Shown in pieces: positions 35,479 to 39,016 of a stretch of DNA of 64,000 bases. The position numbers were made by a program, and so were the translations under genes. How positions within the stretch are numbered: the stretch's first letter is position 1; each line of letters begins with the position of its first letter. The notes beneath the pieces are model-generated. The model was not told the origin of the DNA, did no database searches, and saw only the letters and a list, made by a program, of their open reading frames with translations. The DNA is from Denitrobaculum tricleocarpae (lineage in GTDB: Bacteria; Pseudomonadota; Alphaproteobacteria; Kiloniellales; Kiloniellaceae): the NCBI RefSeq assembly GCF_007004665.1, contig NZ_ML660058.1, positions 186,001-250,000 on the forward strand. The letters are read 5' to 3'.

Positions 35479-35969
35479 ATCGCGGGTTGCGGGTCGCCCG
35501 CCGCCACGCTGGCCGGTCCCTTTAGCGTCCGCAGTAAGCAGGGGAAATGTGACCCGGCCGCGCCGGTTCCATGGCGGAACCCGGCAAATTCGATGGCAGG
35601 CTTTCGATAGCCGCCCAGGGATATCGCGTACCCGGCGAAATCACGTGATTGGGAAAATCGCTGCCCGGTTTCGAGCGCTGGGAACGCGATGCGCCATTTC
35701 GTATTTGGGTAAAACTATTTGGAGTAGAAAAAATAATAAAACATAATCAACAAAACAGAAAAGTTAATAAACGCTAAATAACCATTCTCGATTGCTAAGA
35801 GTGTTCATTTGATCGCAAAAAATATATGAATAAAAACTGCATATTACGTGTTTCAAAGGCTGGTTTAATATTTTATTCTGTTGTTCATCCGAGAGAAACA
35901 CCAGAACGCAAAAGAAAAATACATTACGATTCTGTGAATTTCTCGATCCCCTTCGAAGGTTGATAGGTC
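35479..35969. other. AT-rich intergenic region before a phosphorelay operon
   Basis: About 490 bases between divergent genes. The part from 35700 to 35950 is very AT-rich compared with its surroundings and probably contains the promoter of the kinase operon. I see no gene or repeat. Confidence 0.5.
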
Positions 35970-37238
35970 ATGACCTATTCCAAGTCTCGAGCGATACCGG
36001 ACGAACTTACGTCGAAGGCGCGCAGCCCTTGTTCCTGCGAACCTCATGCGGAACCTGTCCGCCCGGACAAAACGCCGCGTGAGACCTATCGGGTCCTTCA
36101 TGTCGACGACGACTCGGTTGATCATGTCCTGATCAGGAAACTTCTCTCGAAAATCGCGAAACCCAAGTTCGATGTGGTTTCGCTGACGCGGTTCAAGGAG
36201 GCACAGGCGCGTCTCAGCAACGAGACATTCCACGTTGGGCTGATCGACTACCGCCTTGGGGAGCGCTCCGGTTTGGAACTGGTGGAGAAGCTGGGAGGGC
36301 GTTCCGGCATGACGCCCTTGATCATTTTGACGGGGCGCGGCGATTACGCCGTCGACGTGGAGGCGACCGAAGCGGGAGCTTATGACTATCTGGATAAGGA
36401 GGGCCTCTGCGAGATCCTGCTCGAGCGAACCATCCGGCATGTTCGGGTTCAGTTCGAGACGGAGCAGCAGCTGCGAGAGAGCGAAGCCCTTTTGCGGCGG
36501 GCCACACATGAGGCCGAGACGGCGAACTCGGCCAAGTCCGATTTTCTGGCCCGGATGAGTCATGATTTCAGAACACCTCTAAACGCAATCATTGGATTTT
36601 CGGAAGCCATTCAGCAAGAGATCGCGGGGCCGATCGGGGCGTCGAAGTATCTCGATTATGCCAGCGATATAAATCAAAGCGGTCAGGTTTTGCTGTCGAT
36701 GATCAGCGACATTCTCGATCTGTCGAAGATCGAGTCGGGAAACATTGAGTTGAATGAGACCGACATTCTGATCGAGGATGCCGTATCGATGGTTCTCAAA
36801 ATGGTTTTGCCGGGCGCAAAGGCCGCGAAGATTTCGATTGAGACCGATCTGCCGGAAAATCTGCCGATCCTGCGCGCCGACCGGCAGTTGTTGGAACGCA
36901 TGCTGATCAATTCCCTGACCAATGCGATAAAGTTTACCTCTGAGGCAGGCCGTATCCTGCTGGGCGCGGAGGTTACGAAAGACGGGCTTCAGTTGACTGT
37001 GGAAGACAACGGCATCGGGATTCCGCCGCAGCAGATTCCGCGCGTTATAGAGCCCTTTGCCCAAATCCGCCGGTCTGAAAACGCATCGGCCGGCGCAGGT
37101 CTGGGTCTGTCCATTATCAATTCCTTTATCAAGCTCCATGGCGGCGCACTGGCCATCGAGAGCGAAGTCGGCGCGGGCACCAGGATTATCCTCAAATTCC
37201 CGTCGCACCGGCTGCGGCAAAGGCCTTCCATCTCCTAA
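35970..37238 (+). CDS. Receiver-histidine kinase protein
   Basis: The 422-residue cytoplasmic protein has a receiver domain first (about 41-155, phosphoacceptor Asp93 in 'LIDYRLGERSG') and a kinase after it: HisKA with His198 in 'MSHDFRTPLNAIIGFSE', and HATPase_c with 'NSLTNAIKF', 'DNGIGIPP' and 'GAGLGLSIINSFI'. Such receiver-kinase proteins take phosphate from an upstream kinase and control their own activity, serving as relay nodes. It starts a three-gene operon with an ethylene-receptor-like kinase and a single receiver, 19 bases from the next gene. Confidence 0.92.
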   Translation: MTYSKSRAIPDELTSKARSPCSCEPHAEPVRPDKTPRETYRVLHVDDDSVDHVLIRKLLSKIAKPKFDVVSLTRFKEAQARLSNETFHVGLIDYRLGERSGLELVEKLGGRSGMTPLIILTGRGDYAVDVEATEAGAYDYLDKEGLCEILLERTIRHVRVQFETEQQLRESEALLRRATHEAETANSAKSDFLARMSHDFRTPLNAIIGFSEAIQQEIAGPIGASKYLDYASDINQSGQVLLSMISDILDLSKIESGNIELNETDILIEDAVSMVLKMVLPGAKAAKISIETDLPENLPILRADRQLLERMLINSLTNAIKFTSEAGRILLGAEVTKDGLQLTVEDNGIGIPPQQIPRVIEPFAQIRRSENASAGAGLGLSIINSFIKLHGGALAIESEVGAGTRIILKFPSHRLRQRPSIS

Positions 37239-37257
37239 GACCCCGAGGGGGTTCTCA

Positions 37258-38592
37258 ATGTTAGCGATCTACGAGTATCTGTTTGGCGCTGCATCCTTCG
37301 TTCCCCATGGTTACTGTCTTGCCTGGCGTCCCGACCTGATCGCAATTCATGCCCTGTCCGACGGCGTGATTGCCCTGTCCTATTTCTCGATTCCCATTGC
37401 GCTGATCCTGCTGTTGAACAAGCGGGAAGATCTGGCCTTCAAACGAACCTTCGGTCTATTCGCGCTCTTTATCTTTTCCTGCGGCGTGACGCACCTGACG
37501 GCCATGATCATGCTGTGGGAGCCTTACTACGGTGCCCAGGGGATGGTAAAGGCGGTGACCGCGATGATTTCGGTGGTGACGGCAATCTCGCTCTGGCCGT
37601 TGCTGCCCAAAGTGCTGGCGCTGCCGGGGCCGGGACAGCTCCGCAAGATGAACACGCAACTGGCGGCGGAGATTGCCGAGAAGAATGCAGCTCAGGTCAA
37701 CCTTCACCAGGCCTATCAGCAGGTAGAGGCCCAGGTCGTCGAACGCACCCGCGAATTACAGGCGTTAAACCAGCGTCTGCAGGACGACGTTCGGCGGCGC
37801 AGTCTGCTGGAGGAAGAGCTGCGCGAGAAGGCGGCACAGTTGATCGCGACAAATGCCGAGCTGGAGCGCTTCGCTTACATTGCATCCCACGATCTGCAGG
37901 AGCCCCTGCGCAAGATCCAGGCTTTCGGCGATTTGCTGAAGAGCGAATACGAAACTGTATTGCCGGACGAAGCGGTTGAGTATGTGAGAATCATGCAGAA
38001 CGCAGCCTATAGAATGAACAAGCAGACGAAGGACATTTTGACCCTTTCCCGTCTCTCCTGGGACTCGATCCAGTTTGACAGCCTGGATCTTGCGGAAGTG
38101 GTTGAGGAGGTTGCTTTCGATTTGAAAGAGCGCATTGAAGAGGCCGGCGGCAAGCTCGAGGTCGGGCCTTTGCCCGGTATTCCGGGGGACCGGACACAGA
38201 TCCGCCTTTTGATGCAGAACCTCCTGGTCAACGCCTTCAAATACCGCGAGCCGGATTCAATCCCGGAGGTCCATGTGGAGGCAACGCTGCATGATACCGG
38301 CGCACCGGGAACCGGCGGCGCTTGTGTCGAGATAAGCGTGCGGGACAATGGCATAGGCTTCGCTCAGGAGGATGCCGAGAGAATATTCTCGATTTTTCAG
38401 CGGCTGCACGGGCGCAGTGAATTTGACGGAACAGGAATAGGTCTGGCTATCTGTAAGAAAATCGTCGAAAATCATAACGGAGCAATCGAGGCGGTTTCGT
38501 CACTCGGCAAAGGTGCCGTCTTTAATATTCGGTTGCCGACCTCGCAACCAGAACGGCGAGAGATACATGCAGGCACAGACACAGCGGTATAG
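37258..38592 (+). CDS. Histidine kinase with ethylene-receptor-like (ETR1) membrane domain
   Basis: The 444-residue protein has three N-terminal membrane helices matching the copper/ethylene-binding domain of plant ETR1 and cyanobacterial Etr1. Residues Asp35, Tyr42, Ile45, Pro46, Ile72, Cys75 and His79 ('SDGVIALSYFSIP', 'LFIFSCGVTHL') align with ETR1 Asp25, Tyr32, Ile35, Pro36, Ile62, Cys65 and His69 at a constant offset of ten. A coiled coil (about 130-200) leads to HisKA with His211 ('IASHDLQEPLRK') and HATPase_c. There is no GAF domain, unlike plant receptors. It probably binds Cu(I) and senses ethylene or another small unsaturated gas. It overlaps the following receiver gene. Confidence 0.9.
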   Translation: MLAIYEYLFGAASFVPHGYCLAWRPDLIAIHALSDGVIALSYFSIPIALILLLNKREDLAFKRTFGLFALFIFSCGVTHLTAMIMLWEPYYGAQGMVKAVTAMISVVTAISLWPLLPKVLALPGPGQLRKMNTQLAAEIAEKNAAQVNLHQAYQQVEAQVVERTRELQALNQRLQDDVRRRSLLEEELREKAAQLIATNAELERFAYIASHDLQEPLRKIQAFGDLLKSEYETVLPDEAVEYVRIMQNAAYRMNKQTKDILTLSRLSWDSIQFDSLDLAEVVEEVAFDLKERIEEAGGKLEVGPLPGIPGDRTQIRLLMQNLLVNAFKYREPDSIPEVHVEATLHDTGAPGTGGACVEISVRDNGIGFAQEDAERIFSIFQRLHGRSEFDGTGIGLAICKKIVENHNGAIEAVSSLGKGAVFNIRLPTSQPERREIHAGTDTAV

Positions 38593-39016
38593 CGTTCTGA
38601 TGGTCGACGACGATCCGGAAGATGGAGTCCTCGTGCAAAAAGCGATTGCTTCGTCAGGTCCCAAAGTCGATTTCCAGTTTGTTGCCAGCGGTGCCGAGGT
38701 TCTGGATTACCTCTTCACGGAAGGGCGATTTACCGACCGGTCCAGCGCGCCGCGCCCCAATCTTATTCTGCTTGATCTCAACATGCCGGGCGTCGACGGT
38801 TTCAGCGTGCTGAAACAGATCAAAAGCGACATGGACTTGCGCCGGATCCCGGTGGTCGTGCTGACCACGTCCGAGGCGGAGACCGATATCGTCAAGAGTT
38901 ATGATTTCGGTGCAAACACCTTCATCACCAAACCCTCAAGCTTTTCGGACATGATCGAGGTCATGACATCGCTGAAGAGCTATTGGTTCGACGCCGCCCG
39001 GCTGCCCACCGCCTGA
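38567..39016 (+). CDS. Single-domain response regulator (Rcp1-like)
   Basis: The 149-residue receiver has the acidic pair in 'LMVDDDPED', phosphoacceptor Asp70 in 'LLDLNMPGVDG', the Thr-Thr-Ser switch in 'VLTTSEAETD' and the Lys in 'FITKPSS'. The extended first half ('YLFTEGRFTDRSSAPRPN') is typical of Rcp1-type receivers that pair with phytochrome-like kinases. The start lies 26 bases inside the previous gene, a strong sign of coupling. It is the likely phosphate acceptor of the ethylene-receptor-like kinase. Confidence 0.92.
   Translation: MQAQTQRYSVLMVDDDPEDGVLVQKAIASSGPKVDFQFVASGAEVLDYLFTEGRFTDRSSAPRPNLILLDLNMPGVDGFSVLKQIKSDMDLRRIPVVVLTTSEAETDIVKSYDFGANTFITKPSSFSDMIEVMTSLKSYWFDAARLPTA

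Follow-up and report, generated by a model that had tools for sequence, protein, structure and literature searches.

We found that a three-gene operon of Denitrobaculum tricleocarpae probably encodes a bacterial ethylene receptor system, in which a histidine kinase switched by Cu(I) and ethylene would signal to an Rcp-type receiver, with a Rec-controlled receiver-kinase as a putative second, branched step. The operon lies in the window, the 64,000-nucleotide stretch of DNA analysed here (contig NZ_ML660058.1, positions 186,001 to 250,000), and its features are listed in Table 1. Bacterial ethylene receptors are already known, and the trio arrangement is rarely seen; what is particular here is a minimal receptor, consisting of three helices and a long coiled coil, on a bacteriophytochrome-type kinase with an Rcp receiver. 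The system would add an ethylene receptor for the Kiloniellaceae, a family for which the literature searched gave no ethylene response, and the combination of compact receptor, single receiver and Rec-controlled kinase would offer a tractable model for the control of a kinase by Cu(I) and ethylene.

Table 1. Features of the putative ethylene receptor operon (window positions).
Feature	Position	Strand	Remarks
REC-HisKA-HATPase receiver-kinase gene	35970..37238	+	422 aa; Pfam
Ethylene-receptor-type histidine kinase gene	37258..38592	+	444 aa; Pfam ETR1_N + HisKA + HATPase
Single-domain response regulator gene, Rcp1/RcpA type	38567..39016	+	149 aa; Pfam and PDB matches
ETR1_N ethylene-binding domain, residues 27-122 of receptor	37336..37623	+	Pfam
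C75 codon TGC and H79 codon CAC	37480-37482 and 37492-37494	+	predicted Cu(I) ligands
A+T-rich operon leader, partly kept in genus	35700..35950	+	GC content and alignment with G002 and G003

The 444-aa protein is very probably a true ethylene receptor, judging by its ETR1_N domain, its seven ETR1 residues, the lysine K98, and its numbering and identity shared with AzoEtr1 of Azospirillum brasilense. Pfam assigned ETR1_N with an E value of 2e-35 and 121.4 bits, against a curated cut-off of 27, and the domain scored 125 bits for the receptor in the genome search. The first-pass annotation had placed all seven key ETR1 residues at a uniform +10 offset, and we found every one of them there (D35, Y42, I45, P46, I72, C75 and H79), a match far beyond chance (a composition-only estimate gives about 1e-8 for seven fixed residues whatever the offset). 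The helix-3 lysine K98 is present as in AzoEtr1, and alignment with the A. brasilense domain, taken from plasmid record NZ_CP032340 (locus L133), gave 59 identities in 126 residues (47%), ungapped and with the same residue numbering. C75 and H79 of AzoEtr1 are the equivalents of ETR1 C65 and H69; residues 1-130 of AzoEtr1 show saturable, high-affinity ethylene binding, and D35A and C75A are predicted non-binders (PMC11819568). This residue set and numbering, identical to those of a high-affinity ethylene binder, make it improbable that the membrane domain binds copper and senses another small olefin, CO or copper itself, even though the binding residues indicate just a Cu(I) olefin-type site and no ethylene-related genes adjoin the operon. 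Consistent with such another signal, the ACC deaminase model gave only below-cut-off matches in the genome, and ACC deaminase was rejected on that ground as an ethylene link.

The receptor has a simple architecture. Three membrane helices lead into a histidine kinase whose H, N, G1 and G2 motifs are intact, and Pfam detected only ETR1_N, HisKA and HATPase, with neither PAS nor GAF domains. In the AlphaFold model, which was built from a 19-sequence alignment (mean pLDDT 81), the membrane helices span residues 25-55, 62-84 and 91-112, and a single long signalling helix (125-231), with a coiled coil at about residues 125-200, runs into the kinase. Pfam also agrees with the earlier placement of the seven residues in the transmembrane part of a histidine kinase flanked by a receiver-kinase and a single receiver. 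N-terminal to the Pfam domain, nearly all related loci carry a PHGxCxxW motif (residues 16-23; window 37303-37326), whose H17, C20 and W23, kept in 125, 125 and 128 of 133 bacterial domains, respectively, equal the seven canonical positions in conservation. The Cys and His of this motif could have a role in metal, disulfide or folding.

The receptor and the single receiver amount to a phytochrome-type two-component pair that carries an ethylene-type sensor, a reading based on the structural matches of kinase and receiver, their recurrence in ETR loci and a parallel elsewhere in the same genome. The best solved-structure matches of the receptor kinase were bacteriophytochrome kinases and the histidine kinase 8f71, and its HisKA domain is of the bacteriophytochrome type, with H211 as predicted phospho-acceptor. 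The single receiver, a lone REC domain by Pfam with no output domain, best matched the phytochrome response regulators RphyB (4zyl), RcpA (1k68) and Rcp1 (1i3c), and its D70, T100 and K122 are intact. This kinase type occurs in 14 of the 137 ETR open reading frames gathered, and the receiver gene that follows such kinases is usually Rcp-like (L043, L054, L055, L087, L149 and the genus members). Elsewhere in the same genome (L207, G000:C19, 10256-17516), the gene for a same-type kinase (44%), which carries a TorS-like sensor, HAMP and PAS, precedes genes for an Rcp-type receiver (47%), a REC protein, a KaiB-like protein, KaiC and a REC-PAS-kinase; the KaiB-like call was made by sequence inspection. 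The bacteriophytochrome and Rcp1/RcpA cassette thus shares its kinase core and receiver families with the window pair, whereas its sensor is a bilin-binding phytochrome module instead of an ethylene-binding membrane domain.

Comparison with characterized ethylene receptors supported the earlier call of an ethylene-receptor-like kinase with a receiver partner, which also accords with the domain score and residues described above. The closest parallel is AzoEtr1/AzoRR-etr1, which shares the D35, C75, H79 and K98 numbering and has an overlapping single receiver after the kinase (PMC11819568). By contrast, AzoEtr1 contains a PAS domain (PMC11819568), its kinase is FixL/NtrB-like by sequence, and the upstream receiver-kinase is absent; the window receptor lacks a PAS domain, and its kinase is phytochrome-type and paired with an Rcp-type receiver. 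SynEtr1 (slr1212) of Synechocystis likewise couples an ETR1-type membrane domain to a histidine kinase and has a receiver partner, slr1213, but it also contains a light-sensing GAF domain, and its partner switches on transcription of the small RNA csiR1 (PMC11819568, PMC7700396); the window system shows neither feature. Plant ETR1 and ERS1 share the ethylene-binding domain and its full set of seven required residues; compared with them, the window receptor has neither a GAF domain nor a C-terminal receiver, and there is no sign of CTR1-type signalling.

The first-pass annotation had confined ethylene-type sensing to plants and some cyanobacteria, which proved too narrow, since AzoEtr1 binds ethylene (PMC11819568) and ETR1_N was found in 33 of 397 Pseudomonadota genomes (about 8%). 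The domain also occurred in 19 of 289 Alphaproteobacteria genomes and at over 550 loci of a species-level genome collection, which was scanned with a narrower alignment (A2); all seven residues are kept in 107 of 133 bacterial ETR1_N domains. The arrangement was counted at 81 loci whose flanks reach 1.5 kb or more on each side, the window excluded. A separate receiver lies directly downstream at 27 of these and a fused receiver is found at 22; among unfused arrangements, a single receiver downstream is the most frequent. A receiver-kinase is present in the same gene run at only four loci, comprising two of the genus together with L043 and L046, both of which have the order receptor, receiver, receiver-kinase, and whose gene order and kinase types are unlike those of the window. 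The survey of relatives that had been proposed therefore showed the trio to be rare (two other loci among the 81) and ETR1_N itself to be widespread. The operon context, which had been described as unusual, is so only for the extra receiver-kinase; a receptor with a single receiver is ordinary, given the overlapping downstream receiver of AzoEtr1 and the occurrence of the domain across Pseudomonadota.

The receiver-kinase itself is assigned by sequence to the LvrB type of Rec-controlled histidine kinases. It comprises REC (42-144), HisKA (188-257) and HATPase (304-412) domains by Pfam, with intact phospho-acceptors D93 and H198. Residues 40-411 align end to end with the REC-DHp-CA protein LvrB (8vc9), the D93-H198 spacing of 105 equals that of LvrB D56-H161, and the length of the signalling helix is in heptad register, as compared with LvrB alone. 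LvrB is the prototype Rec-controlled kinase, whose catalytic domain is freed once an upstream kinase has phosphorylated REC; it takes its input from the kinase LvrA and targets LvrC (PMC13269768).

We observed the trio in three of the four genus genomes sampled (the window, G002 and G003). In G002 and G003 its site is flanked by a GH25-type gene and an agmatinase-like gene, whereas in G001 the trio is missing from that site, which holds other genes, including a transposase-like open reading frame. Identity to G002 and G003 is 97.5% and 82% for the receptor and 97% and 85% for the receiver, and the receiver-kinase diverges faster than both (81% and 72.5%). For all three genes dN is far below dS against both genomes, with a receptor dN/dS of about 0.04 against G002 and 0.07 against G003. 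This purifying selection, together with the intact catalytic and binding residues, makes it highly improbable that the ethylene system is decaying or non-functional, a possibility raised by its patchy distribution and by G001 with its trio-less site. The domain tree parts the window clade from Pelagibius, a member of the same family (GTDB and NCBI family limits differ), but the AU test did not reject the two together (p 0.48), and we therefore make no claim on horizontal transfer versus vertical descent of ETR1_N within the family.

The faster divergence of the receiver-kinase and its rarity beside ETR kinases elsewhere weaken its link to ethylene. On balance it is unlikely that this protein is not downstream of the receptor, such that a separate REC signal converges on the same small receiver or the genes are merely co-transcribed. 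Its first position in the operon, its divergence and its being missing beside nearly all other ETR kinases would fit such independence, as would the placement of its kinase in a very large generic family, which renders ancestry uninformative on its partner. Nevertheless, the three sampled genus members that carry the receptor all keep the receiver-kinase next to it, similar trios exist at L043 and L046, and the C19 neighbourhood also combines a BphP-type kinase, an Rcp receiver and a REC-PAS-kinase.

In the proposed ethylene-sensing mechanism, C75 and H79 in the three-helix membrane domain of a receptor dimer would coordinate Cu(I), and binding of ethylene would shift the long signalling helix, which, by analogy with ETR1 and SynEtr1, may lower kinase activity. 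The receptor kinase would autophosphorylate on H211, and the family pairing suggests D70 in the Rcp-type receiver as the acceptor of this phosphate. Either the receptor kinase or a different kinase may phosphorylate D93 of the receiver-kinase; this would free the kinase activity of the latter (H198), whose target would be an unlinked regulator or, again, the Rcp-type receiver, so that the receiver-kinase would serve as a branch or an integrator. From the gene order, it is plausible that the three proteins form a single phosphorelay. More tentatively, the relay could be branched and ethylene-gated, with the receptor kinase phosphorylating both the Rcp-type receiver and the REC domain of the receiver-kinase. 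If true, a two-kinase ethylene relay, none of which was found in the literature searched, would have been built by placing an ethylene sensor on a phytochrome-type cassette.

The gene arrangement is compact. The receptor starts at an ATG conserved in the genus, 19 bp past the receiver-kinase gene, and the upstream TTG at 37057 given in the open reading frame list was rejected as its start; the response regulator start overlaps the end of the receptor kinase gene by 26 nt. The leader is probably the promoter region of the operon: its GC content falls to 0.36 in the 250 nt that begin at 35751, compared with 0.60 over the whole window, and it contains GGTTTAATATTTTATT, common to the window and G002. 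A sigma-70 promoter scan called no plus-strand site for the leader, with nothing above shuffles. A TonB receptor gene and a PfpI-like gene downstream were rejected as operon members; they adjoin the operon in G003, but are absent between the operon and the agmatinase-like gene in G002, which places them outside the unit.

Among the other bacterial loci, ETR1_N was also found with HWE kinases and GGDEF-EAL outputs. Broad bacterial occurrence and varied outputs of ethylene-binding domains have already been reviewed (PMC7700396), and our survey shows the domain to be a portable input module on phytochrome-type, HWE and FixL-like kinases and on GGDEF-EAL. GGDEF-EAL is fused to the ethylene-binding domain at L102:5980-9840 and L108:5947-8406, and in Saccharospirillum (L087:7957-9792) an ETR kinase operon is followed by a REC-GGDEF-EAL gene; these predicted outputs suggest that ethylene is linked to cyclic-di-GMP.

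We also observed a split form of the receptor, in which a stand-alone ETR1_N protein (~130-150 aa) is encoded just ahead of a separate membrane histidine kinase, the stop codon of the first gene overlapping the ATG of the second (L044:9693-12150, L046:9688-11822 and L151:1423-3284). The kinase has a periplasmic region of its own, which in L046 matches dCache weakly. The ETR1_N domains of these three loci group in one clade. A frameshift error is unlikely, since the split occurs in three genomes of different families and the overlaps differ (TAATG, ATGGCTAA and ATGA). The ETR gene at L041:8468-10297 (G105) contains two in-frame stops, one past the membrane domain and one in the ATPase domain, and is either a pseudogene or the product of sequence errors. 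Finally, the Methylococcales domains L102, L105, L125, L071 and L079 carry Asn or His at the position of ETR1 D25, with the Cys and His kept.
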